Source: a virus. From it: a stretch of DNA of 47,933 bases. The stretch covers positions 1 to 47,933 of the IMG/VR virus record IMGVR_UViG_3300050132_000241; one strand, written 5' to 3'. The translations under genes were made by a program, and so were the position numbers. This document shows, in pieces, positions 7,265 through 46,353 of the stretch (its first letter is position 1; each line of letters begins with the position of its first letter). The notes beneath the pieces were generated by a model. That model was not told the DNA's origin. It saw only the letters and a list, made by a program, of their open reading frames with translations, and ran no database searches.

Positions 7265-9142
7265 ATGCCCCCTCTAACTCTCCCGAATTCGCTGCTTAAA
7301 GAAGTTCGCGCTACCATGAGTGCAGTAGCGTCGGGAGAGTTTGATAGGAATGAAATCGGCGCAACGATGGTTCCGAGGAAGGAGATTCTCTCTTATAAAC
7401 TCCTCCCGGTTCAACTTATCCAAGGGGTAGAAGCGAAGCGCGCTGCTTATAAGATTAATTCTTTGCTGGACCTTTACTTCTTCTCTACCGTAACGCTTAA
7501 CAAGACTCGAATTCAAAGAGGTCCAGGTTACACGAACTCCCTTCATTATCAGATGTGCTTAACTGTAATGAAGGATGGGCTTAAGGAAGTAATTGAAATC
7601 CCTCGTGGACATTTTAAGTCTACTATTTATAGTGAGTGCTTTCCTATCTGGAGAGCGCTCCCTTTTGGTCCTCGGGAGGAAGATCTTTTTGCCTCTCTTA
7701 ACTACTCCGATCTCTTCATCGAGTGGATGCGGCGTACTCATTCACAGGATATACGAATTCTCCTCGTCTCAGAAACCATCCTGAATGCTACAAAGCTCGG
7801 TGTAAAGATTTCTAATCACTACGAGAATGGTTCCCTCTTCCGGGAAATCTTTCCTGAAATCCTTCCGACCAGCAAAGAAACCTGGACTGCTAACTCTCTC
7901 CACCAAAATCGCACTGGAGCAGGAAAAGCTCACGGAGAAGGAACCTTCGATTTCATCGGCGTAGGGGCGGCGCTTCAGAGCCGGCACTACGATGTAGTAG
8001 TTCAAGACGATCTTCCTGGAATGGCGGCTCTTAACTCTGATACCGTAATGAAGGGTACAATCGAATACCACCAGCTCCTCCCAGGAGCAATGGATGCTAA
8101 TATTCATACAGGAGGAGATTTTGACGAGATTGTCGTTGGAAATAGATGGAGTCACAAAGACCTTAATTCTTACATCCGAGAAAATGAAAAGTATTTCGGA
8201 TTTACAACACACAGCGCTCTTGGTGGATGCTGCTCTCTTCACCCTATCGGGACTCCAATCTTTCCAGAGGCATTCTCAAGAGAACTCCTCATGCGAAGAA
8301 GAAAGAGCCTTGGCTCCTATTTCTTCTCCTGCCAGTACCTCAACTTCCCAATTGATCCTTCAAAAGCGAAGTTTAATATGGGAGACTTCAGATTCTTCCA
8401 TTTCGAGCAAGTAGGAGGGGCACTTGCGAATCCTAAGGTTTCTCCGCTGCTCTCAGAGATTGATACATCTGTACATCAGAAGAGAACAGTCCTCCGACAC
8501 CACGTAGCAGAGGGGGATGTAATCAACGACACATACCCGCGTTACCTTGAGCGTTATCTCGTCGTTGATCCTAACCACGGCGGCCAGCATGATAACTTCG
8601 CACAAGGGAGATGTAGACATGCAATAATGGTTTCTGGAGTTATGCGAGATCCACGTCGTGTCTACATTCTTGATACCTGGGCAGAGGCTGTTCCTATTGA
8701 GCAATTCGTATTTAAGATCTTTGAGATGGCTCTTAAGTGGAAGCTTACAGAGATCCATGTAGAGGCAGTTGCTGCTCAAAAGTTTCTCCTGTACCACTTA
8801 CGCTATTTCATCGAGCAAGAAAAAGGAAACCGTCCAGAGCTTACGAATCTACGAATCGTAGAACTCAAATGCTCCCAAGCAGCAAATGCTAAATTTGAAC
8901 GCATTGATGCTACGGTCCCCGTAGTAGAACGACATGAAGTCTGGATCAATGCGACCACCTCTGATAACTTCAGGGAAGAAGCTGAAGCCTATGGGCAGAA
9001 GAAAGGGCTCATTGACCTCCTAGATGTATTTGGGCATTCAATGAATCTCTGGAAATTCGATACTGTTACAGAAGATGAAGTTGAGGATTTCCTCTCTCGA
9101 CGCCTTGCAATCTATAAAAGGGGCGTAGGGAGAATGTCCTAG
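7265..9142 (+). CDS. terminase large subunit, 625 aa
   Basis: Packaging ATPase/nuclease. A Walker A-like Pro-Arg-Gly-His-Phe-Lys-Ser-Thr lies at 113-120, a Walker B-like hydrophobic strand ending Gln-Asp-Asp at 244-249, and a C-terminal RNase H-fold nuclease starts near Leu-Val-Val-Asp-Pro-Asn at about 437, followed by the expected strand/helix pattern and a second acidic cluster near Glu in the His-Val-Glu-Ala strand. Length fits podoviral large terminases. It acts at the portal to fill proheads with DNA. Frame and start are unambiguous. Confidence 0.92.
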   Translation: MPPLTLPNSLLKEVRATMSAVASGEFDRNEIGATMVPRKEILSYKLLPVQLIQGVEAKRAAYKINSLLDLYFFSTVTLNKTRIQRGPGYTNSLHYQMCLTVMKDGLKEVIEIPRGHFKSTIYSECFPIWRALPFGPREEDLFASLNYSDLFIEWMRRTHSQDIRILLVSETILNATKLGVKISNHYENGSLFREIFPEILPTSKETWTANSLHQNRTGAGKAHGEGTFDFIGVGAALQSRHYDVVVQDDLPGMAALNSDTVMKGTIEYHQLLPGAMDANIHTGGDFDEIVVGNRWSHKDLNSYIRENEKYFGFTTHSALGGCCSLHPIGTPIFPEAFSRELLMRRRKSLGSYFFSCQYLNFPIDPSKAKFNMGDFRFFHFEQVGGALANPKVSPLLSEIDTSVHQKRTVLRHHVAEGDVINDTYPRYLERYLVVDPNHGGQHDNFAQGRCRHAIMVSGVMRDPRRVYILDTWAEAVPIEQFVFKIFEMALKWKLTEIHVEAVAAQKFLLYHLRYFIEQEKGNRPELTNLRIVELKCSQAANAKFERIDATVPVVERHEVWINATTSDNFREEAEAYGQKKGLIDLLDVFGHSMNLWKFDTVTEDEVEDFLSRRLAIYKRGVGRMS

Positions 9143-14288: not shown

Positions 14289-15245
14289 ATGGCACAAGTA
14301 AGAGCAAAGTTCCCGCAGTTGATGCAGACTGGTATGAAGAAGATTTGGTTCGACGCCATGCAGTACCAGTTGAAGAGTTCACGCTATCCTGAGGTCTTCC
14401 ATGAGGAGACTTCTGATAGCCAATATGAACAGGAAATGGAGATGGCAGGTATTTCTGCTCTCCAGGAGAAGCCGGAAGATTCCCCGACTGCGTATACGGA
14501 GATGATTCAAGGACCGTCGAAGCGGTTTATTCACCTTACCTATTCTCTCGGAATCCGTACCTCGAAAGAGCTTATGGATGATGATAAGTATGGCTTGGTG
14601 AAGAAGGGTCCAGTTCTCCTTGCCCGCTCCGCCGCGTTTACGGAAGAGATGATTGCTTGGAATGTATTTAATCTAGGCTTTACCTCTGCTGTAACCACGG
14701 GAGATGGACTCTCTCTCTTTAACAACCAGCATCCTCTCCTCGGAGGCGCAGCGGCTACTAACCTGGCTCCTGGAGCTTCTAACGTGATTTCCCTCGCGGG
14801 AACCTGGCCTAATCGTCCTTCTACGGATATTGATTTTAGCGTCGCTGGCCTCCAGCTTGCTACGAATCATGCCGCTAGGATGATTGATAACCAGGGATTC
14901 CCGATTAACCTCCGGTGGAAGTATCTTATCACTCCTCCTGAGCTTCGGTTCCTGGTACGTGAGATTCTGGGTTCTCCTGGCAAGCCTTATACCGCAGATA
15001 ACACGATTAACTCGCTGTTGCCTGAGGATTATAAGAACCTGGAGATTCCGTGGCTTACCTCCCCCTCGGCGTGGTTCCTTGCTGCGGAGAAGGAAGATCA
15101 TACTCTCCGTGTGTATCATCGTGAAAGGGCGAAGACGGATTTTGACGATGACTTCGACTCTGATGCGTTGAAGCAGAAGACAAGGCTTCGTATCTCTGCC
15201 GGTTCTACTCGTTGGCAGGGTGTTTGGGGCACGTCCGGACCGTAG
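14289..15245 (+). CDS. major capsid protein (probable), 318 aa
   Basis: Very strong AAAGGAGG ribosome site, as expected for the most abundant virion protein. Size and sequence fit an HK97-fold capsid: N-terminal arm, a Phe-Phe/Ile-Thr-Glu-Glu helix region near residues 115-130, an Asp-Gly-Leu-Ser-Leu-Phe-Asn loop at about 140, and a beta-rich C-terminal half ending in basic residues. No N-terminal cleavage domain is obvious, consistent with a separate scaffold. Confidence 0.8.
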   Translation: MAQVRAKFPQLMQTGMKKIWFDAMQYQLKSSRYPEVFHEETSDSQYEQEMEMAGISALQEKPEDSPTAYTEMIQGPSKRFIHLTYSLGIRTSKELMDDDKYGLVKKGPVLLARSAAFTEEMIAWNVFNLGFTSAVTTGDGLSLFNNQHPLLGGAAATNLAPGASNVISLAGTWPNRPSTDIDFSVAGLQLATNHAARMIDNQGFPINLRWKYLITPPELRFLVREILGSPGKPYTADNTINSLLPEDYKNLEIPWLTSPSAWFLAAEKEDHTLRVYHRERAKTDFDDDFDSDALKQKTRLRISAGSTRWQGVWGTSGP

Positions 15246-27476: not shown

Positions 27477-28790
27477 GTGAAGATAGCTCTATCAAGTTAT
27501 ACGGCTATGGGAGCTTGGTGGGCATTACGTCTAATGGCCGAGGGACATAAGGTTGACTACTTTCTCTCCAAGCCTGAGTACGCCGATGTTCTTGGGGGGT
27601 TAATTCCACCCCCCAAGATGCTATCGCTAGATCATAGGCGACATCAGGCAGGGTATGGGTTTCCTTCGTATAAGGGGTATGACCTATCCCTCTTTGACGT
27701 AACAGGGAAGCCTAAACAAGCGGAGCATTCTAAGGCTCAATGCCCTACGTTAGGGGATGGTTCTTTTGAAGAGATGCTAGAGGATGATAGGAAGTTCGGC
27801 CTCGAAGCAATGGAGAGCTGTGGAATTAACGTCCCCCCTTATAAGGAGTTTCAAACTGCCTCAGAGGGGAAAGCATACATCAAGAAAGAAGGTGGGCGCT
27901 ATGTTTATAAGCCTTATGAGACTGCTGATGCCACGGACAAAGCCCTTACATACGTAGCAAAAGACGCCGAGGATCTGCTTGGAGTAATTGATAAGCTCTG
28001 GGCCTCTTCAAAGAACATGCCTTTTATCCTTCAAGAATTCGTCTCCGGAACTGAGCTTGGAGTGGAGGCATTCTTTAATGGAGAGGACTTCTATCTGATT
28101 ACCGGGACAATGGAAGAGAAGAAGTTCATGAACGATAACAAAGGGCCGAACACAGGATGCTCCGGGAATTTAATCTTCGCTATGAAAGGGGATGAGAAGA
28201 TTTACAAAGAGGGCCTTCTGAAAGTAAAGCCCTTTCTCCAAGCAGCCGGCTTCAGAGGGATCATCGATCTCAACACAATCATCACGGAGCATAAGATCTA
28301 TGGCCTAGAGTGGACACCGCGCTTCGGATATCTCTGCTGCCCTACAATTGCTACTATGTACGGGCCTGGGTATGGTGAGCTGCTTTATGATATAGCAGCA
28401 GGTAAAACTCCTCGTCTCGGATGGATTCATCCCTTCGGAGCGGCGGCTACTGTTACTATCCCCCCTTATCCAACAGAGATAAGAATCCCTAAAGCAAAGG
28501 GAATTCCTATTGACGGGATTGATCCTGATGATATAGAGTTGCTTCGAGAGACGTATCTCTATGATGTAATGGTAGAGAAAGGGAAGCTAGTTACGAGTGG
28601 GAACCTTGGGTATATTGGCGCTGTTCTGGCGGGTTCCTCTACGATAGAAGGGGCCTTTGGAAAAGTAGACCAGAGACTCAAGGGACTTCAAATTCCAAAT
28701 TGCCAATACCGAACTGATTTGGAAAAAACTGCTAAGAAGAAATACGACACCTTGGATGCACAAGGGTGGTTCTCAGGAGATGAACTTTGA
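27477..28790 (+). CDS. PurD-like ATP-grasp ligase, 437 aa
   Basis: GTG start at 27477 with GGAAGGAG. Length and layout match phosphoribosylamine-glycine ligase (about 430 aa): N-terminal nucleotide-like domain, ATP-grasp core with Tyr-Val-Tyr-Lys-Pro-Tyr (about 142-147), Gln-Glu-Phe-Val-Ser-Gly-Thr-Glu (about 188-195) and a metal-site region Glu-Trp-Thr-Pro-Arg-Phe-Gly where PurD usually has Glu-x-Asn-x-Arg-Phe-Gly; PurD-like C-terminal domain. True PurD acts in purine synthesis; the altered metal region and the neighbours (internal proteins, fibre) suggest another ligation. Substrate unknown. Confidence 0.8.
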   Translation: MKIALSSYTAMGAWWALRLMAEGHKVDYFLSKPEYADVLGGLIPPPKMLSLDHRRHQAGYGFPSYKGYDLSLFDVTGKPKQAEHSKAQCPTLGDGSFEEMLEDDRKFGLEAMESCGINVPPYKEFQTASEGKAYIKKEGGRYVYKPYETADATDKALTYVAKDAEDLLGVIDKLWASSKNMPFILQEFVSGTELGVEAFFNGEDFYLITGTMEEKKFMNDNKGPNTGCSGNLIFAMKGDEKIYKEGLLKVKPFLQAAGFRGIIDLNTIITEHKIYGLEWTPRFGYLCCPTIATMYGPGYGELLYDIAAGKTPRLGWIHPFGAAATVTIPPYPTEIRIPKAKGIPIDGIDPDDIELLRETYLYDVMVEKGKLVTSGNLGYIGAVLAGSSTIEGAFGKVDQRLKGLQIPNCQYRTDLEKTAKKKYDTLDAQGWFSGDEL

Positions 28791-32114: not shown

Positions 32115-32154
32115 AATGCCCACCCTTCTTAATGAGGGGTGGGCATTCTTTTTT
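32115..32154. terminator. bidirectional rho-independent terminator
   Basis: An 11-bp perfect stem (32115-32125 with 32137-32147), 11-base loop, then CTTTTTT on the plus strand and AAAA before it for the minus strand. It separates the convergent late (plus) and replication (minus) operons. Confidence 0.95.
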
Positions 32155-32794
32155 ATTCCACTTTTTCCGGTACTACAAAGTCGAAAGCTCCTAGTTCCTC
32201 ACCATTATAAATGAACCCAAGAATCTCATGCTCTCTTAGGAACTTAAATGCAATCCCAGGTTCTTTCGTCGGAATCATTGTTCCGCTATAGGCGCCGTAT
32301 AAAACTCGCCCGCCGTTCTTGATGAGCTTATCCGTTACTCCAGCTCCAATTGATACTACAACTCCTGTAGTCGGGAGAGTTTTAGAGGAATCTGGAATGA
32401 AGATTGAATGCCCCTTCCCATGGCAGAGAGGGCATTCAATGTTAACGTCCATTGAATCTGGATCTCCGTGGCACTCGATACAGAGTATTCCGTAGCGTCC
32501 TTCTTCCGGAGTTGCATCAGCGTACTTATATCCAGGGCGCGCTGTTCTCTTGCATGGGCATTCAGATACGATCCTCCCAGTTCCCTTGCAATCTTTGCAC
32601 TCATATCCGCTCCTGAAAATATCCACCGCTACGAGAATCTTATCCCCAGTAGCTTCAAATTGATATGGAAGCCCAGGGATAGAGGCCCTGTTAGTCCCAT
32701 CGTCTATGACCATCGTAGAGCCGGTATTAGTTGCTCGGTAAGTCTCCCTGGATACAAGAGAGGCTGCATTCTTAAACTCAGTTGATTCACTCAT
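32153..32794 (-). CDS. GroES-fold protein with inserted DnaJ-type zinc finger, 213 aa
   Basis: Residues 51-58 (Asp-Lys-Ile-Leu-Val-Ala-Val) match GroES strand 1, and 144-195 match its remainder: Gly-Val-Val-Val-Ser-Ile-Gly, Gly-Arg-Val-Leu-Tyr-Gly, Phe-Leu-Arg-Glu-His-Glu-Ile-Leu. Where GroES has its short mobile loop, residues 64-128 hold cysteine pairs C66/C69 (CxxCxGxG), C79/C81, C105/C108 and C121/C124 (CxxCxGxG), as in the DnaJ zinc domain. GroES caps GroEL; the insertion should change GroEL or client contact. Last gene of the replication operon, ATGA overlap with the upstream gene. Confidence 0.85.
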   Translation of the reverse strand: MSESTEFKNAASLVSRETYRATNTGSTMVIDDGTNRASIPGLPYQFEATGDKILVAVDIFRSGYECKDCKGTGRIVSECPCKRTARPGYKYADATPEEGRYGILCIECHGDPDSMDVNIECPLCHGKGHSIFIPDSSKTLPTTGVVVSIGAGVTDKLIKNGGRVLYGAYSGTMIPTKEPGIAFKFLREHEILGFIYNGEELGAFDFVVPEKVE

Positions 32795-34029
32795 GGTTGA
32801 ACAATCCCCTTCGTTGGAATAGTAGTTTTAGTAACGATCGAGTAATAAACCTTCCCTTGATGACTCTGTGCTCGGCAGTAGCCGATAGCAGTGAGAATCA
32901 TTATAACTCGATCAAGAGTTTCTGGAGTCATATGTCGGTTGTTAACTCTGAGAAGTTCTGTTTTCGTAACCGCGCCATATTTCTCAATGCAAAGTTGTAC
33001 GCGAGCAGTTGGTTCTGCGAGTTGAGAGGAACCTATCCCCCGGAATACCCTTTCGATTTGAAGTTTAATCTGCTTGATAATCCAGATAGCATCCTTCATC
33101 TCCTGTCCCCTTACTATGGGGGAATCATGCTTCGCTGCTGATAGAATGAGAGCAACCTTATATACATGCGCTTTCATTCTTCCCTTGAAATTCAGCATTG
33201 CGTCTGAATCATCTGGAGCAGCGCTGGTCTCAGGATAGAAATTCCTAAATGCAAGCTGTGCGTCGAGATCAAGTTTATACTCCCCAGAGAGTTTAGAGAT
33301 ATGATCGAGGTCATTAAGGAGACGATTGTAGGTATCGAGATCCCTTTTATTATCCTCTAGTGGTTCCGCGAATGGAAGTTCTTTTGACTTCTTATCTGCA
33401 AATACGAAAATGCAGCGGCTCGTGAATCCCCCAGCTACCGAGGCATCCACATTCTTCTCCATCCCCCGGACATAATCCGGTACCGTTGCACCGATCATAG
33501 ATACACACATATCTTTGATGTGCTGTTTTCCCTTGTTTTTCGTCTCGTAGGAGTATGTACTTTGATCCCACGCTTGACATAAAAACGTCAGCATCCAATC
33601 CGACGCCCCTACTAGTGTCTGGAGTTCTGGGGCAAAGAGTGTACATGTATACTCCTTCATCATGGTAAGAGCCTGCCCCCCTACTACCTTCGGGGGCATC
33701 GCCCATCCACCTGCGATTGATTCAATTATTGATTCCGCTGTTGCCCTATCGCTTACTGTATTAGCAAGCTGATAGGAGGTTTTAGACTTCACCATCCTCC
33801 AAGCAAAGTTCATAGCGGTTCCCTTCCCAATAGAAGGGGGGCCTGTTAGGACTATGAATTGATTTGGATATATGGTATAAAGCCCATCTTTGATGTAGAC
33901 ATTGTTCTTAAGAACTCCCCCAAGAACGGAAAATGCGCTCCATAGCAGGTACGCCTTTGGGGCCTCGGTATGGGGTAGAGTACAGTTGACGAACTCTGTA
34001 AACCACGGTTGCTGTAGTAATCGACTCAA
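32791..34029 (-). CDS. DUF3987-like P-loop ATPase, probable replication protein, 412 aa
   Basis: Walker A at 63-71 (Gly-Pro-Pro-Ser-Ile-Gly-Lys-Gly-Thr); the surrounding order (N-terminal Ala-Ser/Phe-Ser-Val-Leu-Gly-Gly, Walker A, acidic strands, helical C-terminus ending in a winged-helix-like 60 residues) is that of DUF3987 proteins, thought to act as replicative helicase or primase-helicase components. TTG start at 34029 with a weak ribosome site; no ATG precedes the Walker motif. Operon with DNA polymerase. Confidence 0.7.
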   Translation of the reverse strand: MSRLLQQPWFTEFVNCTLPHTEAPKAYLLWSAFSVLGGVLKNNVYIKDGLYTIYPNQFIVLTGPPSIGKGTAMNFAWRMVKSKTSYQLANTVSDRATAESIIESIAGGWAMPPKVVGGQALTMMKEYTCTLFAPELQTLVGASDWMLTFLCQAWDQSTYSYETKNKGKQHIKDMCVSMIGATVPDYVRGMEKNVDASVAGGFTSRCIFVFADKKSKELPFAEPLEDNKRDLDTYNRLLNDLDHISKLSGEYKLDLDAQLAFRNFYPETSAAPDDSDAMLNFKGRMKAHVYKVALILSAAKHDSPIVRGQEMKDAIWIIKQIKLQIERVFRGIGSSQLAEPTARVQLCIEKYGAVTKTELLRVNNRHMTPETLDRVIMILTAIGYCRAQSHQGKVYYSIVTKTTIPTKGIVQP

Positions 34030-34065: not shown

Positions 34066-35556
34066 TTAACTTGAAGCTCTTTCTCTCTTCTCTCTCTTCT
34101 CTTCCAGTTCCAGGAGTGCCTTCCTCAGACCGGCTTCGCTCAAGTCCTTGAACTCCACTGCATTATTAAAATCATCCCCTACTTTCGCTTCAAGCGGGAT
34201 TGTGACTGAGATTCCGTTATGGAATCTGATCTTCCGATCAAAGGCTTTCTTGATTCTATCAAGCTGTCGCATGATTGTTGGGATGTTATTTGGTATATCT
34301 TGCACGATTGAATCATGCCCTTCTTGGACAATATATCTCTCCTCCGAAGGGTAGAGCGTCTCCATTTCAAAAAGAGCAAAACCAGTAAGGCAACCCACAG
34401 TATGCTGGGGAATGTAAGCATAAGCCTCCTTGAATGCTTTGGAGTTATCTGAGTTGGGTCGAAGGGAGAGAAAATAACGCTCCATCCCAAATGGAGTACG
34501 AAGCATTCGTGTTCGGGCAAGTTCATCCTTGACGTATTTATGAAAAACTCCCCGCACAGAAGGATCAGCCCTATCTGTAATGTCAAGAAAATGCTGACAT
34601 GTAGCAACAGGAATACTCTTCCCCTCTTGCGCAAGCGCCTGACTCATCATCCCTGCGCTCTCGTCATAATTAAACGAGTGCCTTGTCTTCTTCCCCATAT
34701 ATCTCATAAAGGAATGCTTCTTCTTATCCCAATCAGGATCATCCTTCGCGGGGACATGAGTCCCAAAGATAAGAGACGCTAGCTTCGAGTGCCTATCTTC
34801 CCCAGCGGAGAGTTCTTTAAGGGCGCTGACATTCCCTGCGAGGGCACTAACGGGCCAATCTTCTGCTTGACACTGGTCAACAGAGAGGAATATGTTTCCT
34901 TCCCTTGGGATGAGGCATTCGAGGAACTCACTTGAGATCTCTGAGTGAGACGGCAGATTCTGAGCATTACCCCCGAACCCAAAGGTATGTTTACGAGAGG
35001 AACGCCTGCTCGTGACTGTTCCGCCAACGTTATACGAAGAGAGAAAATAATAATCTTCCTCCGAGAGGGCCTCTCCAGAGCGAAGAAGAAATCTGGCGTT
35101 GAGATACTGCGACATAATCTTTCCAAGCTCTCGTACCTTGAGAATAGCGCGTATGGCAGGATCACCACCGGAATGGTTAAACTGATTTTCAACGAGCATC
35201 TTCTGGAGAGCAAGTTCCCCGGTCGAATAGGCTTGGTCATAGTTTCCCTCGGCGTCTTTTTTCGTGATCTTAGGGACGTGGTAACCTAGATCTTGCATAG
35301 TTTTGAGCAGCGATCTATCACCGCTGGTCGCATTTAGGTTAACACAGTTAAGCTCCTTCTTATCAACGGAATCTTTACCGATGAATACTTTCATCCCCCA
35401 TTGGGATGAGGGAATAAGAAGTTGCTGTTCAATAAGAGAGCGAACTTTGAGCTTTGCTCTTTTTATTCGCGGATGGTCTATCCGTATTCCCCGATCCCCT
35501 ATCTCACAGTAGATAGCTTGGAGGGCGTGGAGGTAGGAGTTATTTATCCGGTCCAT
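34066..35556 (-). CDS. family A DNA polymerase, polymerase half, 496 aa
   Basis: Palm motifs: A at 226-232 (Val-Asp-Gln-Cys-Gln-Ala-Glu) followed by the usual Glu-Asp-Arg-His-Ser; B at about 285-298 (Arg, Lys289, ending Tyr297-Asp); C at 414-416 His-Asp-Ser instead of His-Asp-Glu. Aligning motif B by the Arg-Lys and Tyr spacing places His293 at the position of E. coli Phe762 and Ser294 at Gly763. Exonuclease domain is absent and encoded by the gene two upstream. Start at 35556 after GGTGGAGG; overlaps the 55-aa gene by 17 bases. Confidence 0.88.
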   Translation of the reverse strand: MDRINNSYLHALQAIYCEIGDRGIRIDHPRIKRAKLKVRSLIEQQLLIPSSQWGMKVFIGKDSVDKKELNCVNLNATSGDRSLLKTMQDLGYHVPKITKKDAEGNYDQAYSTGELALQKMLVENQFNHSGGDPAIRAILKVRELGKIMSQYLNARFLLRSGEALSEEDYYFLSSYNVGGTVTSRRSSRKHTFGFGGNAQNLPSHSEISSEFLECLIPREGNIFLSVDQCQAEDWPVSALAGNVSALKELSAGEDRHSKLASLIFGTHVPAKDDPDWDKKKHSFMRYMGKKTRHSFNYDESAGMMSQALAQEGKSIPVATCQHFLDITDRADPSVRGVFHKYVKDELARTRMLRTPFGMERYFLSLRPNSDNSKAFKEAYAYIPQHTVGCLTGFALFEMETLYPSEERYIVQEGHDSIVQDIPNNIPTIMRQLDRIKKAFDRKIRFHNGISVTIPLEAKVGDDFNNAVEFKDLSEAGLRKALLELEEKREKRERASS

Positions 35557-35707
35557 CCTCCACCGCCTTTCTGATAAGAGCAAGATGCTTCTGTATCTCT
35601 AAGATACAAGTTGAAATAGGCGGGAGGTTAAAGATGGGGAAAGAGAGACATTGAGGTAGGTAGCCCTCTAGGTAGGAGAGGGAATCTTTGATTGCTTGCT
35701 TGTTCAT
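35540..35707 (-). CDS. small protein between the polymerase halves, 55 aa
   Basis: ATG at 35705-35707 overlaps the TGA of the exonuclease gene (ATGA), and its end overlaps the polymerase start by 17 bases, so all three are coupled. Two helices separated by a Phe/Pro-rich bend, two Cys. Not recognised. Might bridge the two polymerase polypeptides. Confidence 0.65.
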   Translation of the reverse strand: MNKQAIKDSLSYLEGYLPQCLSFPIFNLPPISTCILEIQKHLALIRKAVEDGPDK

Positions 35708-36792
35708 GCTAATTGTGGCCTCGCTTTGAATTCCTCTTCCTGCTGTTCATAAATCTCATACGTGCAGCATACATCAAGGCAGTTGTAACGTCGGAGCTTG
35801 GACATATTCCTGAGGTTCCAGTTATGCCCTTCGTCCTTGTAGTATTGCTCACGGGTATACTGTCTCGTTTGAAACTGCAACTTGTGAGGAAGCTCCGGCC
35901 ATAGAACGTGATGCCGGAGCATAGTATCTTTGACCTTACGAAGATCAATCCTAAACCCCAAGGAAGACAAAAACTTAGCATCGAAGTTGAAGAAGTTCTG
36001 CCCAAGTTGAGGAATTTCGTATAGGAGTGGCTCAAGTTTCCTCCAAAGAACCTTTGTCTCCATCATCGAAGGCCGGAATAGATTAAAGCTGATCCCAAAT
36101 GTCGATGAATCTGCGAGTCCAAGCGTCAGAGGATACCCCGGATGCGGAAAGAAATCGGAATCTTTCTTTGGGTAGCAAGTCTCAATATCATTTGATAGCA
36201 GCTTCGCACTCTCGAAACGAGTTAGATAAGAGAGCAACTCATCCAAAGGCATCTCATGGTACTTCATATCCCTATAAGGTAAGGGCTGAAGAGAACCATT
36301 CTTCCTCCAGAACTCAAGCTCCACTCGTATCTTCTGCATGTCGAAGTACGTTGTGATATTACGTTCAGTCCAATTCTGGCAAGCTAAGCCTGGGCCATAA
36401 AGAGGAATCGCGTAATGGGGATAATTAAGAGAGGGAGCCTTTAGAAGCGATCCTACATATTTAGAGAGCTGAGTCTTATACGACTTTGCCCCCTTGAATG
36501 GCTTGCACTCAGGAATGAATACTTGCGCAGCTTCATCCAAGCACAGGACAAGAGGGGGTTTGTAGTGGTTAAGCTCATTCTCTAATATAGCAAAGGCATG
36601 TTTTTCATCTGTATTAGGGCGCCGGCTGGTAACGTATACATCCGAGATTCCAGCATCCTTTAACATCTTATCAAAGACATACCCCATCCCACCACTGAAC
36701 ATATATCCTTTCGCGGTATCTGTAGAGAGAGGGGATTCAGATATAACCCAGATAGGGCACTTAGGATTCCCGCGAGGGGTTATGTAGGGCAT
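35704..36792 (-). CDS. UDG-like domain plus DEDDy 3'-5' exonuclease, 362 aa
   Basis: Residues 190-350 carry the proofreading exonuclease motifs: Asp202/Glu204, Asp271 (Gln-Asn-Phe-Phe-Asn-Phe-Asp), Asp289 and Tyr336/Asp340. Residues 10-150 have the layout of a uracil-DNA-glycosylase fold (Gly-Gly-Met-Gly-x-x-Phe-Asp, Val-Tyr-Val-Thr, Leu-Cys-Leu-Asp) but the catalytic loops look degenerate. SPO1-type phage polymerases also have a UDG-like N-terminal domain ahead of exo and pol; here the protein stops after exo. TTTGGAGGAAG ribosome site. Confidence 0.8.
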   Translation of the reverse strand: MPYITPRGNPKCPIWVISESPLSTDTAKGYMFSGGMGYVFDKMLKDAGISDVYVTSRRPNTDEKHAFAILENELNHYKPPLVLCLDEAAQVFIPECKPFKGAKSYKTQLSKYVGSLLKAPSLNYPHYAIPLYGPGLACQNWTERNITTYFDMQKIRVELEFWRKNGSLQPLPYRDMKYHEMPLDELLSYLTRFESAKLLSNDIETCYPKKDSDFFPHPGYPLTLGLADSSTFGISFNLFRPSMMETKVLWRKLEPLLYEIPQLGQNFFNFDAKFLSSLGFRIDLRKVKDTMLRHHVLWPELPHKLQFQTRQYTREQYYKDEGHNWNLRNMSKLRRYNCLDVCCTYEIYEQQEEEFKARPQLA

Positions 36793-42448: not shown

Positions 42449-42662
42449 TAGAAGGACCCCCCTTTTTCGGCTCTGCCTTTATGTAGGGATATACTCCTAT
42501 TTCATTTATGATAGTGGGATCATAGTAATGGCAGCCAAAAAATCTTTCTCCTTTGTAGGTTCCTTTCCTCACCAGATAGTGAATCCACTCTCCTTTAGTC
42601 TCTGGAAAGCTTTTCGTAATCGGGGTATTGCAATGCTTACACCTTACTGGTTTATGTCCCAT
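42429..42662 (-). CDS. small zinc-ribbon protein, 77 aa
   Basis: Cys8/Cys11 knuckle and Cys44 with neighbouring His45 could form a zinc site. Start overlaps the FtsK-like stop by 1 base (TAATG-type coupling region). Function unknown. Confidence 0.7.
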   Translation of the reverse strand: MGHKPVRCKHCNTPITKSFPETKGEWIHYLVRKGTYKGERFFGCHYYDPTIINEIGVYPYIKAEPKKGGPSNAESTK

Positions 42663-43825
42663 CAGAGAACTCCAAACTGCATTCTAAGCATCTCATGCTG
42701 CGAGATCATTGCGCTAATATCTGTCATTGAAACATAAGAGGAATGCGCTCTCTTAATCTGATCAGATGTAGCGGTGCGGTAGAGGAAATCTCCATTCCCA
42801 AGGAGCTTTTCCGCCCCATTCTCATCAAGAATAACCCGCGAATCCTGCATCGAAACTAGCTTAAAAGCTATCCTAGCAGGGAAGTTAGCTTTTAGATCCC
42901 CTTCGATGATCTTAACCGAGGGTCTCTGGGTTGCGAGGATGATATGAATTCCAACTGCACGGCAGACTTGTGCAAGGCGTTTGACGAGATCCTCGATAGA
43001 GTAAGGGCGATATTTTTTTTCAATCTGAGCGAGCAAAGCTCTATCCGCCCCTACTACATCCGCGAATTCATCAATGATAAGGATTTTGTATTTCATCCTC
43101 TCCCCAAGAGCCATCTTGTTCCACTCTGCGGCATTCCTGCAGAATCCACTCATCATCTTTGTTCTCTCCTCGTATTCAAGGAGGAGTAAATCTAGAGTAT
43201 TCCTAAGGTCAGTAACAGTAGTAACGACGCTACTAACATGAGGAAGACTCTTAAATAAAACCAAATCCAGCTGTTTCGTATCTGCAAGGATGAACTCCAT
43301 TTCTTCCGATGAGCGGAGAAGGGAAAGGGAGAGGATAAGTTGAGAAGTAAAAATACTCTTACCAGCGCCGGTAGCTCCTGCGATTAGGAGGTGAGGTTGC
43401 TTCGCCAGATCAAGATATACTGGCTCCCCCTTGGTATTTTTTCCCATAAGAAGCGGGAGAATCATTTCCCCAACGGAGGGCTCTTTGAACATATCATAGA
43501 GGCACTGGTCAAAGGGAATAAGTTCCCGATCTATTCTCGGAACTGCGATAGAAACAAGCCCTAAATCACGAGTGATAAGGACCGCCTCTACTCCGAGGGA
43601 CATGGCAATATCCTCCTCGCGGGAGGTTATCTTGCTGAGTTGTACATCGGGGAAAGGCTCAAAGAAGTAGGTCCTAACAACCGGACCTACTTCTGCCTTA
43701 CGGAAGGTAGCGTAGAATCCAAGAGAACTCATCTTCATAGAGAGTTTTACGATCTGCTCTCTTTGTGGGGAGGGGATTTCTTGGATTCCTGGGAGAAGTT
43801 TAAGGAGTTGTGCTGTGAGGTTCAA
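42662..43825 (-). CDS. FtsK/SpoIIIE-type DNA translocase, soluble, 387 aa
   Basis: Has the FtsK alpha domain (about 47-105: Gly-Pro-Val-Val, Ser-Lys-Ile-Thr, Asp-Ile-Ala) and the RecA-like beta motor: Walker A 150-157 (GATGAGKS), Ala-Asp-Thr-Lys near 181, Walker B ILIIDE 248-253, Ala-Thr-Gln-Arg-Pro-Ser 298-303, and the C-terminal Leu-Leu-Gly-x-Gly-Asp-x-Leu. No membrane segments and no gamma domain. Pumps dsDNA; role in the phage unknown. TTG start with AAGGAG. Confidence 0.9.
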   Translation of the reverse strand: MNLTAQLLKLLPGIQEIPSPQREQIVKLSMKMSSLGFYATFRKAEVGPVVRTYFFEPFPDVQLSKITSREEDIAMSLGVEAVLITRDLGLVSIAVPRIDRELIPFDQCLYDMFKEPSVGEMILPLLMGKNTKGEPVYLDLAKQPHLLIAGATGAGKSIFTSQLILSLSLLRSSEEMEFILADTKQLDLVLFKSLPHVSSVVTTVTDLRNTLDLLLLEYEERTKMMSGFCRNAAEWNKMALGERMKYKILIIDEFADVVGADRALLAQIEKKYRPYSIEDLVKRLAQVCRAVGIHIILATQRPSVKIIEGDLKANFPARIAFKLVSMQDSRVILDENGAEKLLGNGDFLYRTATSDQIKRAHSSYVSMTDISAMISQHEMLRMQFGVL

Positions 43826-44003: not shown

Positions 44004-44179
44004 CTCCCCGTCCCATCTGGAAATTGATACCGAGAAAGCAAAATCTCTCGCTTTTCAAGATTTTCAAGCTCGCGTAAGAGTTGTTCTCTCTTCTCTGGAG
44101 ACATATCCACTGACCAGCATGTAAATCCAGCAAAGGATTTCAAAGCTTGTTTAAGCGTGTAGATTTCGGTGTCCCTCAT
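44000..44179 (-). CDS. hypothetical helical protein, 59 aa
   Basis: ATG at 44177-44179 overlaps the VWA gene stop (ATGA) and follows GGAGGGG. Two charged helices (Leu/Glu/Arg heptads in 30-50). Closes the gap between VWA and the next gene, making VWA, 59 aa, 67 aa and FtsK a coupled run. Confidence 0.65.
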   Translation of the reverse strand: MRDTEIYTLKQALKSFAGFTCWSVDMSPEKREQLLRELENLEKREILLSRYQFPDGTGR

Positions 44180-44907
44180 CTCCCCTCCAAAGAAGCCCTG
44201 AAGTTCCCATCACTCAGGCGGAGCCTGTTAATAGGCGCGAGATATTTAAACGCATTCTTAAAAGAGGAACCCTTCTGAAGATCCAGGAAATACCCCCCAG
44301 TTCTATCAGCGATTTCTTTCATCAGCGCGCTGGCAATGTAGTTATCACATCTCCCGTTGATAAAGACTGTATCAATCGGGATCTTTAGCTCATTCGCTAG
44401 GGAAATAGCCCTTTCCTTCTCCTCCTGTGTATCCGGAGATCCATCAGAGAAAGCAATAAGCCTCGTGGCACGAGGGGTAGCTTTGAGTGCTCTGAGGATT
44501 GTAGGAAAGAGTGGAGTCATTCCCGGAGCTTCAATGGCTGCAATAGCGGAAGCAATCTTAATAAGATCCGAGGAAAGCTCTGCATTCCCGATAAGAGGAT
44601 CAAGATACCTCTGATCTCCTGGATTCATCAGATGAATCGCTACTGCTGTTTGTCCTGGGATACAATTACGAAGGAATTCAACACATCCCTCTTTTGCCTC
44701 CTTTATCGAAGCTCCACCCATAGAACCTGAATCATCGAATACAACTCGGATACGCTCGGGGCAATCAGAAGGGGATACGAGTTTCTTCTCCTTCGAGATA
44801 GCTGTGGAGTCACTATTCTCCACAGGTGGGATAGCGGCTACAGCAGCCGCACGAAGGGCTTCAAAGCGTGAAGCCTTGGAGATGGGCTTTTTAATATCAA
44901 AGGCCAT
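44176..44907 (-). CDS. von Willebrand factor A (VWA) protein, 243 aa
   Basis: Complete MIDAS metal site: Asp58-x-Ser60-x-Ser62, Thr131 (Gly-Met-Thr-Pro-Leu) and Asp155 (Phe-Ser-Asp-Gly-Ser-Pro-Asp). Fold elements follow the usual Rossmann order. N-terminal 45 residues are a Lys/Ala-rich arm. VWA proteins bind partners through a divalent metal, often with an AAA ATPase; the FtsK motor is nearby. Cytoplasmic, no signal peptide. Confidence 0.88.
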   Translation of the reverse strand: MAFDIKKPISKASRFEALRAAAVAAIPPVENSDSTAISKEKKLVSPSDCPERIRVVFDDSGSMGGASIKEAKEGCVEFLRNCIPGQTAVAIHLMNPGDQRYLDPLIGNAELSSDLIKIASAIAAIEAPGMTPLFPTILRALKATPRATRLIAFSDGSPDTQEEKERAISLANELKIPIDTVFINGRCDNYIASALMKEIADRTGGYFLDLQKGSSFKNAFKYLAPINRLRLSDGNFRASLEGR

Positions 44908-45512: not shown

Positions 45513-45710
45513 TTAGCTAAAATCACCAAGTTGAATACGATCTGCTGCATTTTGCCATGCAGCAGTTTCATCGAGGGTTTCTACACTTAGGACTAAATAG
45601 TCCTCTCTCACTTGATAATATGTGATATATTCCCCGAACTGCCTACGAGAATACCTCTCACAATAAGCAAAAGGAAACCTGGCCCATACTACAAGTTTGC
45701 TAGCTTGCAT
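45513..45710 (-). CDS. hypothetical protein, 65 aa
   Basis: GGAG before ATG; start overlaps the J-domain gene end by 11 bases. Aromatic, Tyr-rich alpha/beta. Not recognised. Confidence 0.65.
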   Translation of the reverse strand: MQASKLVVWARFPFAYCERYSRRQFGEYITYYQVREDYLVLSVETLDETAAWQNAADRIQLGDFS

Positions 45711-46353
45711 TATATGCGCTCCATAGCATTGTTAATTCACTCATCTTCTTTGGATCACCGCCCTTATCTGGGTGCAGGCGGATACATGCATGACGATAGA
45801 ATTTCTTCAGCTCTTGTGGGGAGGCCGCTTTTAGTTGCTCACCTGTGATGTTCATAAGTCCAGCTAAGGCTACAAAGAGCGCCTCCCCAGAGGGGATTCC
45901 AGTTCCTTTTGAAGTAGGGGGAGCGTAGAAGAAATCCTTCTCGTTATAAACTGGAGCGGGAGTTCCCCCATTATATCCCCAGGCTCCGCCATAACGACTA
46001 GCCGGAGGCGGAACATAAGGTTTCCACTTAAAATCTCCTCTTGCTTGAAGTCCTCTTAAATTTACTACTGCTTTAAGAGTAGTTCCAGAGAGAAGTCCCC
46101 CTTGAATTGCTTGGTTCAAGACACTAATAACACGGGGGCCTGCTGGTCCAACATAGGACCAGATATATGTCTTCGCATCATAGTCCCTCTCGTCGGGGGG
46201 AACTGCTTTTAAGAGGGAGCGAATAATCTCACTTTGAGCAAGTTCCTTTGGATTTTTCCAGTCAAGTTTTGTAGTTTTCCCATCGGAAGAGAGAGCTAGA
46301 TCTAGCATCTCAAGTGGCGAGTTAGGATTGAGGTGTTCGTAGTATACATACAC
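45700..46353 (-). CDS. C-terminal J-domain protein, 217 aa
   Basis: Residues about 169-216 form a J domain with the HPD motif at 194-196 (His-Pro-Asp-Lys-Gly-Gly), placed at the C-terminus rather than N-terminus as in DnaJ. Residues 1-105 are an unrecognised helical region; 110-150 Pro/Gly/Tyr-rich linker. J domains stimulate Hsp70 (DnaK) ATPase, so it likely redirects host DnaK. It lacks the zinc finger, which occurs in the GroES-fold protein. GTG start with GGAAGGAA. Confidence 0.85.
   Translation of the reverse strand: MYVYYEHLNPNSPLEMLDLALSSDGKTTKLDWKNPKELAQSEIIRSLLKAVPPDERDYDAKTYIWSYVGPAGPRVISVLNQAIQGGLLSGTTLKAVVNLRGLQARGDFKWKPYVPPPASRYGGAWGYNGGTPAPVYNEKDFFYAPPTSKGTGIPSGEALFVALAGLMNITGEQLKAASPQELKKFYRHACIRLHPDKGGDPKKMSELTMLWSAYNAS

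Follow-up and report, generated by a model that had tools for sequence, protein, structure and literature searches.

The window, a stretch of 47,933 nucleotides comprising one whole metagenomic IMG/VR virus record (IMGVR_UViG_3300050132_000241), encodes a phage cochaperonin with a DnaJ-type zinc finger, which is a real domain architecture that is undescribed in the records and openly licensed papers searched. The finger sits inside the mobile loop by which cochaperonins bind GroEL, in the N-terminal arm of the loop. The gene (213 aa; 32,153..32,794) was recognized by its open reading frame, its Pfam matches, and a family of 40 members; it lies at the coordinates of the original prediction and is read from the minus strand, as shown by the translation and by the plus strand at this position being full of stops. 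It closes a leftward replication operon and starts within the end of the upstream DUF3987 gene, its ATG and the DUF3987 stop codon overlapping in a four-base ATGA (32,791..32,794). This overlap, together with the existence of 40 distinct family members, indicates that the cochaperonin is a real gene rather than a chance open reading frame.

The GroES barrel and the DnaJ-type finger that had been proposed from the sequence of the window were both recovered by sequence, profile, and predicted fold. Residues 130–194 match Pfam Cpn10 (PF00166; 4.6e-9, 36.6 bits against a curated cut-off of 21.1), as do 21 of the 25 family members scanned. Alignment to GroES by hhalign gave an E-value of 5e-11, and the family sequence profile alone finds Cpn20/GroES (3.5e-16). 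The structure predicted for the window protein is of moderate confidence (pLDDT 62 overall and about 80 in the barrel) and contains the GroES beta-barrel, with Cpn10s ranking ahead of any other fold in the VIA comparison: the best 16 rows are all Cpn10s, and the first unrelated fold appears at Z 5.9. The top row is T4 gp31 (Z 9.1, 95 residues, 17% identity), so that the earlier comparison with gp31 was an apt one, and 3nx6 is matched at Z 8.4 (1.7 Å over 68 residues, 35% identity). The model of a compact relative, L036 (167 aa), has a pLDDT of 83 and matches Cpn10 and gp31 at Z values of about 10, up to 10.6. The Cpn10 range aligned by VIA in the window model spans both sides of the zinc finger, which is therefore inserted into a single barrel.

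The protein begins with an N-terminal extension of low model confidence (residues 1–44; 32,663..32,794, minus strand), which varies across the family. The first barrel strand follows at residues 46–58 (FEATGDKILVAVD; 32,621..32,659, minus strand; model strand 52–57) and belongs to the single Cpn10 barrel in the VIA alignments, while the remainder of the barrel, at residues 139–195 (32,210..32,380, minus strand), is located by the Pfam, hhalign, and VIA matches. A gap in the hhalign alignment shows a roof segment that falls about 7 residues short of that of GroES. Three members of one sub-branch (L017, L019, and L040) have long insertions in the roof region, where other members have a shortened roof. 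The window protein also has a weak match to a PHROG head-morphogenesis family (0.026).

The DnaJ/BSD2-type zinc finger occupies residues 66–128 (32,411..32,599, minus strand), and its cysteines are found, as predicted, at 66/69, 79/81, 105/108, and 121/124, with the first and fourth pairs in the CxxCxGxG form. Motif 1 (CKDCKGTG, residues 66–73; 32,576..32,599) and motif 4 (CPLCHGKG, residues 121–128; 32,411..32,434) are predicted to form an outer zinc site, and motif 2 (CPC, residues 79–81; 32,552..32,560) and motif 3 (CIEC, residues 105–108; 32,471..32,482) an inner one, all on the minus strand. The finger of the window matches Pfam DnaJ_CXXCXGXG (PF00684) at 4.9e-6 with 27.1 bits, which is under the curated cut-off of 32.7, and the same profile was matched below an E-value of 0.01 in 14 of the 25 scanned members. 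In the L036 model, the finger (residues 30–84) matches BSD2 (6ekb) at Z 7.5 over 55 residues with 40% identity, and it also matches 6ekc and 8ilm; across the structural alignments of L036 its identity to BSD2 is 37–40%. The family sequence profile alone finds BSD2 (4.3e-5) and DnaJ (1exk, 0.0037). The fold match comes from L036 and the family profile, as BSD2 and DnaJ rows are absent from the fold search of the window model itself, which is no evidence against the match because the Cpn10 barrel fills the list.

The outer Cys pairs (motifs 1 and 4) are present in all 40 members, of which 31 carry four Cys pairs and nine carry the outer two only; none has three. The conserved GYEC and the mobile-loop tripeptide anchor the two motifs that are retained throughout. 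A tree built with the inner insert left out shows at least six changes of the inner site, each as a unit, on well-supported branches. In DnaJ, zinc site I is formed by motifs 1 and 4 and zinc site II by motifs 2 and 3, and the loss or gain of motifs 2 and 3 as a unit is what this arrangement predicts. In 2003 work, as cited in PMC4428491, the first of these sites in DnaJ was reported to be needed for substrate binding and the second for contact with DnaK. The retention of the outer site alongside an optional inner site is thus suggestive of client binding by the finger, although it is no proof.

The mobile loop of the cochaperonin is interrupted and extended by the finger, not absent. The original prediction had the finger standing in place of the loop; this part did not hold, as all 40 members retain the GroEL-binding end. 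Residues 129–140 of the window protein (HSIFIPDSSKTL) align with GroES SGIVIPDSATEK, and directly after the finger the tripeptide and the PD(S/A)xK..PTxG segment align with GIVIPDSAKEK of GroES. The tripeptide itself (I131-F132-I133; 32,396..32,404, minus strand) is aligned with IVI of GroES and is equivalent to the GroES I-V-L/I. The finger lies between barrel strand 1 and the tripeptide, which follows the finger in 40 of 40 members. The first position of the tripeptide is I, L, or V throughout the family and the third is I, V, L, or M in 35 members and T or A in the other five, while the middle residue is charged in three members (LKI, IEI, and LEL). The pLDDT of the window model falls below 50 at residues 130–138, as expected of a free loop.

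Alignment-guided scans yielded 40 distinct proteins with the same domain order, on many contigs and in two gene contexts, in answer to the homolog search that had been suggested as a check. Neither the window protein nor its DUF3987 neighbor retrieved any relatives in plain protein searches of viral contigs; the first relatives came via the polymerase, and the same kind of protein is encoded downstream of DUF3987 in them. The family divides into two deep lineages with full support on the tree (100/100), lineage A (n = 22, including the window) and lineage B (n = 18). The cochaperonin gene follows those of PolA and DUF3987 in lineage A and precedes the genes for the terminase large subunit and the portal in lineage B, and the terminase, portal, and capsid families are common to both lineages. 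No full-length member was present in 50,697 phage or 72,556 plasmid records, and no description of a GroES–zinc-finger fusion was found in the openly licensed literature, in agreement with the earlier statement that no example had been described. A scan of genome contigs from 84,980 species, which used one motif only and which divergent forms would escape, returned one member on a 47.7-kb contig of a Sulfuriferula metagenome-assembled genome; it is found there together with a phage capsid gene, and the ordinary GroES of the same genome is on a different contig. As this sole genome-contig match sits with a phage capsid gene, no clear cellular member is known. Matches in two 640-kb phage records (L101, LR745206; L102, LR756502) were rejected as members, since they consist of long tandem CxxCxGxG-like repeats with no GroES part.

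The leftward operon of the window reads, in order, a PolA exonuclease/uracil-DNA-glycosylase part, PolA, DUF3987, and the cochaperonin. The polymerase is split into two open reading frames on the minus strand, with a uracil-DNA-glycosylase-like domain and a 3′–5′ exonuclease at 35,704..36,792 and the PolA domain at 34,066..35,583. This family A DNA polymerase and the DUF3987 primase/helicase-type protein (32,791..34,029, minus strand) are conserved neighbors of the cochaperonin gene in lineage A, the latter immediately upstream. Between the cochaperonin gene and a convergent tail gene lies a terminator-like hairpin of 14 pairs followed by a T run on the plus strand (32,115..32,147); one such hairpin was found against 0.9 expected by chance, and the terminator-like reading is supported by its place at the gene end. 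The terminase large subunit of the window (7,265..9,142, plus strand) falls in the same cluster as the gene adjoining the zinc-finger cochaperonin in lineage B. Elsewhere in the window, an ATP-grasp protein like PurD (phosphoribosylamine–glycine ligase, 7.8e-17; 27,477..28,790, plus strand) is encoded among the late genes and is conserved in 17 lineage A loci. An FtsK/SpoIIIE-like ATPase (PHROG, 1.8e-75; 42,662..43,825, minus strand) lies in the early region, and the nearest relative of a von Willebrand factor A domain protein (44,176..44,907, minus strand) is an acidobacterial VWA family (2.8e-5), which is a weak hint at the host.

The proposed client of the cochaperonin is the major capsid protein (318 aa; 14,289..15,245, plus strand), assigned as a PHROG major head protein. 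The link between the two that was suggested at the outset is supported by association. Relatives of the window capsid protein occur in 27 of 35 family records with 37–80% identity, and seven of the eight records without one are contigs under 18 kb; the capsid protein is shared across both lineages although the neighbor of the cochaperonin gene is the polymerase in one (A) and the terminase in the other (B). The same capsid type, at 24–33% identity, was found in 20 named phage records, with hosts ranging from proteobacteria to cyanobacteria and a methanogen. Thirteen of these were tested, near copies being left out (OK172329, MW202796, MW202785, OQ401624, OL906435, MN698239, MK929790, MW202601, BK063670, MN698241, MW202545, MW574966, and MW202675), and all 13 carry a Cpn10 over the cut-off, whereas none of 11 control phages does, the controls having been chosen by similarity to the window polymerase or terminase and lacking the capsid family by PHROG profile. 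Because the records are related by descent, these counts are not independent trials. In Alcaligenes phage vB_Af_QDWS535, a gene annotated as co-chaperonin GroES lies between the portal/terminase-side genes and the capsid gene, and the 13 core genes of the HTVC023P-type pelagiphages include one for co-chaperonin GroES (PMC9599517). The Cpn10s of these two, of Roseobacter phage CRP-902, and of their relatives go with the same capsid type but have no zinc finger, and no CxxC pair or zinc finger was seen in the Cpn10 of any of the 13 tested phages. The loop of the QDWS535 Cpn10 is strongly altered and has no GGIVL-like tripeptide.

No GroEL/Cpn60 is encoded in 33 family records, the window included, all of them linear and possibly incomplete, and it follows that host GroEL must be used. 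Likewise, no credible second, ordinary Cpn10 is present in the 19 zinc-finger phage records tested, so that the zinc form stands where relatives have a plain Cpn10; a second Cpn10 match at positions 700–819 of the window was weak, contained an internal stop, and was judged to be due to chance. On balance, the protein is probably a cochaperonin that takes over from GroES on host GroEL for the folding of the capsid protein, its zinc fingers holding the client at the rim of the chamber. Seven subunits would form a lid on host GroEL, displacing GroES as T4 gp31 does, and the fingers would form a ring at the rim between the lid and the apical domains. On its way into or out of the chamber, the major capsid protein may be held by this ring, in a manner akin to the help that BSD2 gives the Rubisco large subunit. 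The client holding would be done by the outer zinc site, the inner site being dispensable. At about 35 kDa, the capsid protein is small enough for a normal GroEL–GroES chamber; client size is therefore no explanation for a special lid.

The chief rival is that the protein is a cochaperonin for the capsid protein whose finger never touches the client, but acts as a rigid, zinc-stabilized spacer in the loop that alters lid height, chamber volume, or affinity for GroEL and so favors the phage lid over host GroES. Such a role, which we regard as possible but somewhat unlikely, is consistent with the kept tripeptide and with a tolerant insert: the distance to the PTxG motif across the insert varies widely, from 43 to 93 residues in the family, and the inner zinc site comes and goes. 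It also recalls gp31, whose loop is likewise lengthened and whose chamber is larger (PMC6318259). However, so variable a length would be odd if height mattered, and outer Cys motifs kept throughout in DnaJ/BSD2 form, in a finger so similar in sequence to BSD2, are more than a spacer needs.

The protein might instead be derived from Cpn10 and act outside the chaperonin cycle, without GroEL, serving in assembly or scaffolding, in replication, or in late transcription. The place of the gene in a replication operon in lineage A would fit this, as would weak PHROG matches to antitermination Q-like zinc fingers (0.0017), and GroES-like barrels also occur in unrelated enzymes, as seen from the dehydrogenase rows in the L036 fold search. 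A Q-like identity was nevertheless dropped in view of the GroES barrel, and a role outside the cycle is improbable given that the GroEL-binding end of the loop is invariably conserved, that the lineage B gene adjoins the terminase, and that the ordinary Cpn10 carried by related phages is here replaced by this gene. It is very unlikely that the CxxC pairs serve in thiol-disulfide exchange or as a redox switch borne by the barrel: DnaJ zinc domains do have weak thiol-reductase activity (PMC4428491), but the inner pairs of the family are often CxC or wider-spaced, or are missing altogether, and what never varies is the outer tetrad, the arrangement expected of a single structural zinc. Finally, although the window is a single metagenomic virus record, a misassembly joining GroES and DnaJ fragments is refuted by the homologues, which repeat the same order across the family in both gene contexts.

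The cochaperonin chain of the window itself has no J-domain match in Pfam. A separate protein with a C-terminal J domain (HPDKGGD) and otherwise of unknown type (45,700..46,353, minus strand) accompanies the cochaperonin in lineage A, where a J-domain match (E-values of 1.2e-8 to 0.007) is present in each of the 12 records at least 45 kb long. The C-terminal HPD(K/R)..GD...M..L motif is conserved in the J-domain proteins that were read, an intact HPD motif being seen in the window, L045, L046, L048, L051, and L054, and no J-domain match was found in the one long lineage B record tested. Lineage A could conceivably possess a split Hsp40, in which the separate J-domain protein and the finger-bearing cochaperonin would couple host DnaK and GroEL, and the capsid protein, received from DnaK, would be handed directly to a GroEL chamber whose lid already grips the client, although we hold this to be a long shot. 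We know of no precedent for a physical bridge between the Hsp70 and chaperonin systems.

Among known systems, T4 gp31, without which the T4 capsid protein does not fold, combines a longer loop (22 residues) with a larger chamber and lacks a roof (PMC6318259). The window family shares with gp31 the GroES fold, a long loop, a shortened roof, a link to the major capsid protein, and the lack of a phage GroEL, but its loop holds a zinc-finger insert of roughly 40–90 residues, whereas gp31 is without a finger. The likeness to GroES, Cpn10, and Cpn20 lies in the Pfam Cpn10 match over the cut-off and in the aligned loop tripeptide and P(D/E)..K..PTxG segment; the finger in the N-terminal arm of the loop, the shorter roof, and the N-terminal extension set the phage protein apart. 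BSD2, the chloroplast Rubisco assembly chaperone, is a DnaJ-type finger without a J domain that is needed for Rubisco assembly (PMC7865324, PMC4428491), and a structure of its complex with the Rubisco large-subunit octamer is available (6ekc). The phage finger resembles it in fold, in its CxxCxGxG motifs, and in having no J domain, but BSD2 is a separate protein, whereas the phage finger is fused into a cochaperonin. With the cysteine-rich domain of DnaJ it shares CxxCxGxG motifs in the DnaJ order; unlike type I J proteins, it comes with no J domain, G/F region, or client-binding beta domains, and its inner motifs are relaxed or missing.

Cochaperonins are regarded as passive lids: GroES and gp31 each cap the chamber and lack a separate domain for client binding. 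In the phages described here, a virus lineage has built a known type of client-binding finger into the contact loop of the lid and has kept it through deep divergence. The resulting protein joins in one chain two proteins of chloroplast Rubisco biogenesis, the cochaperonin and BSD2. If the finger holds the client, the family would offer a genetically simple system for asking whether a lid chooses or guides its substrate, as well as a way to ask why one capsid-protein family needs its own lid.
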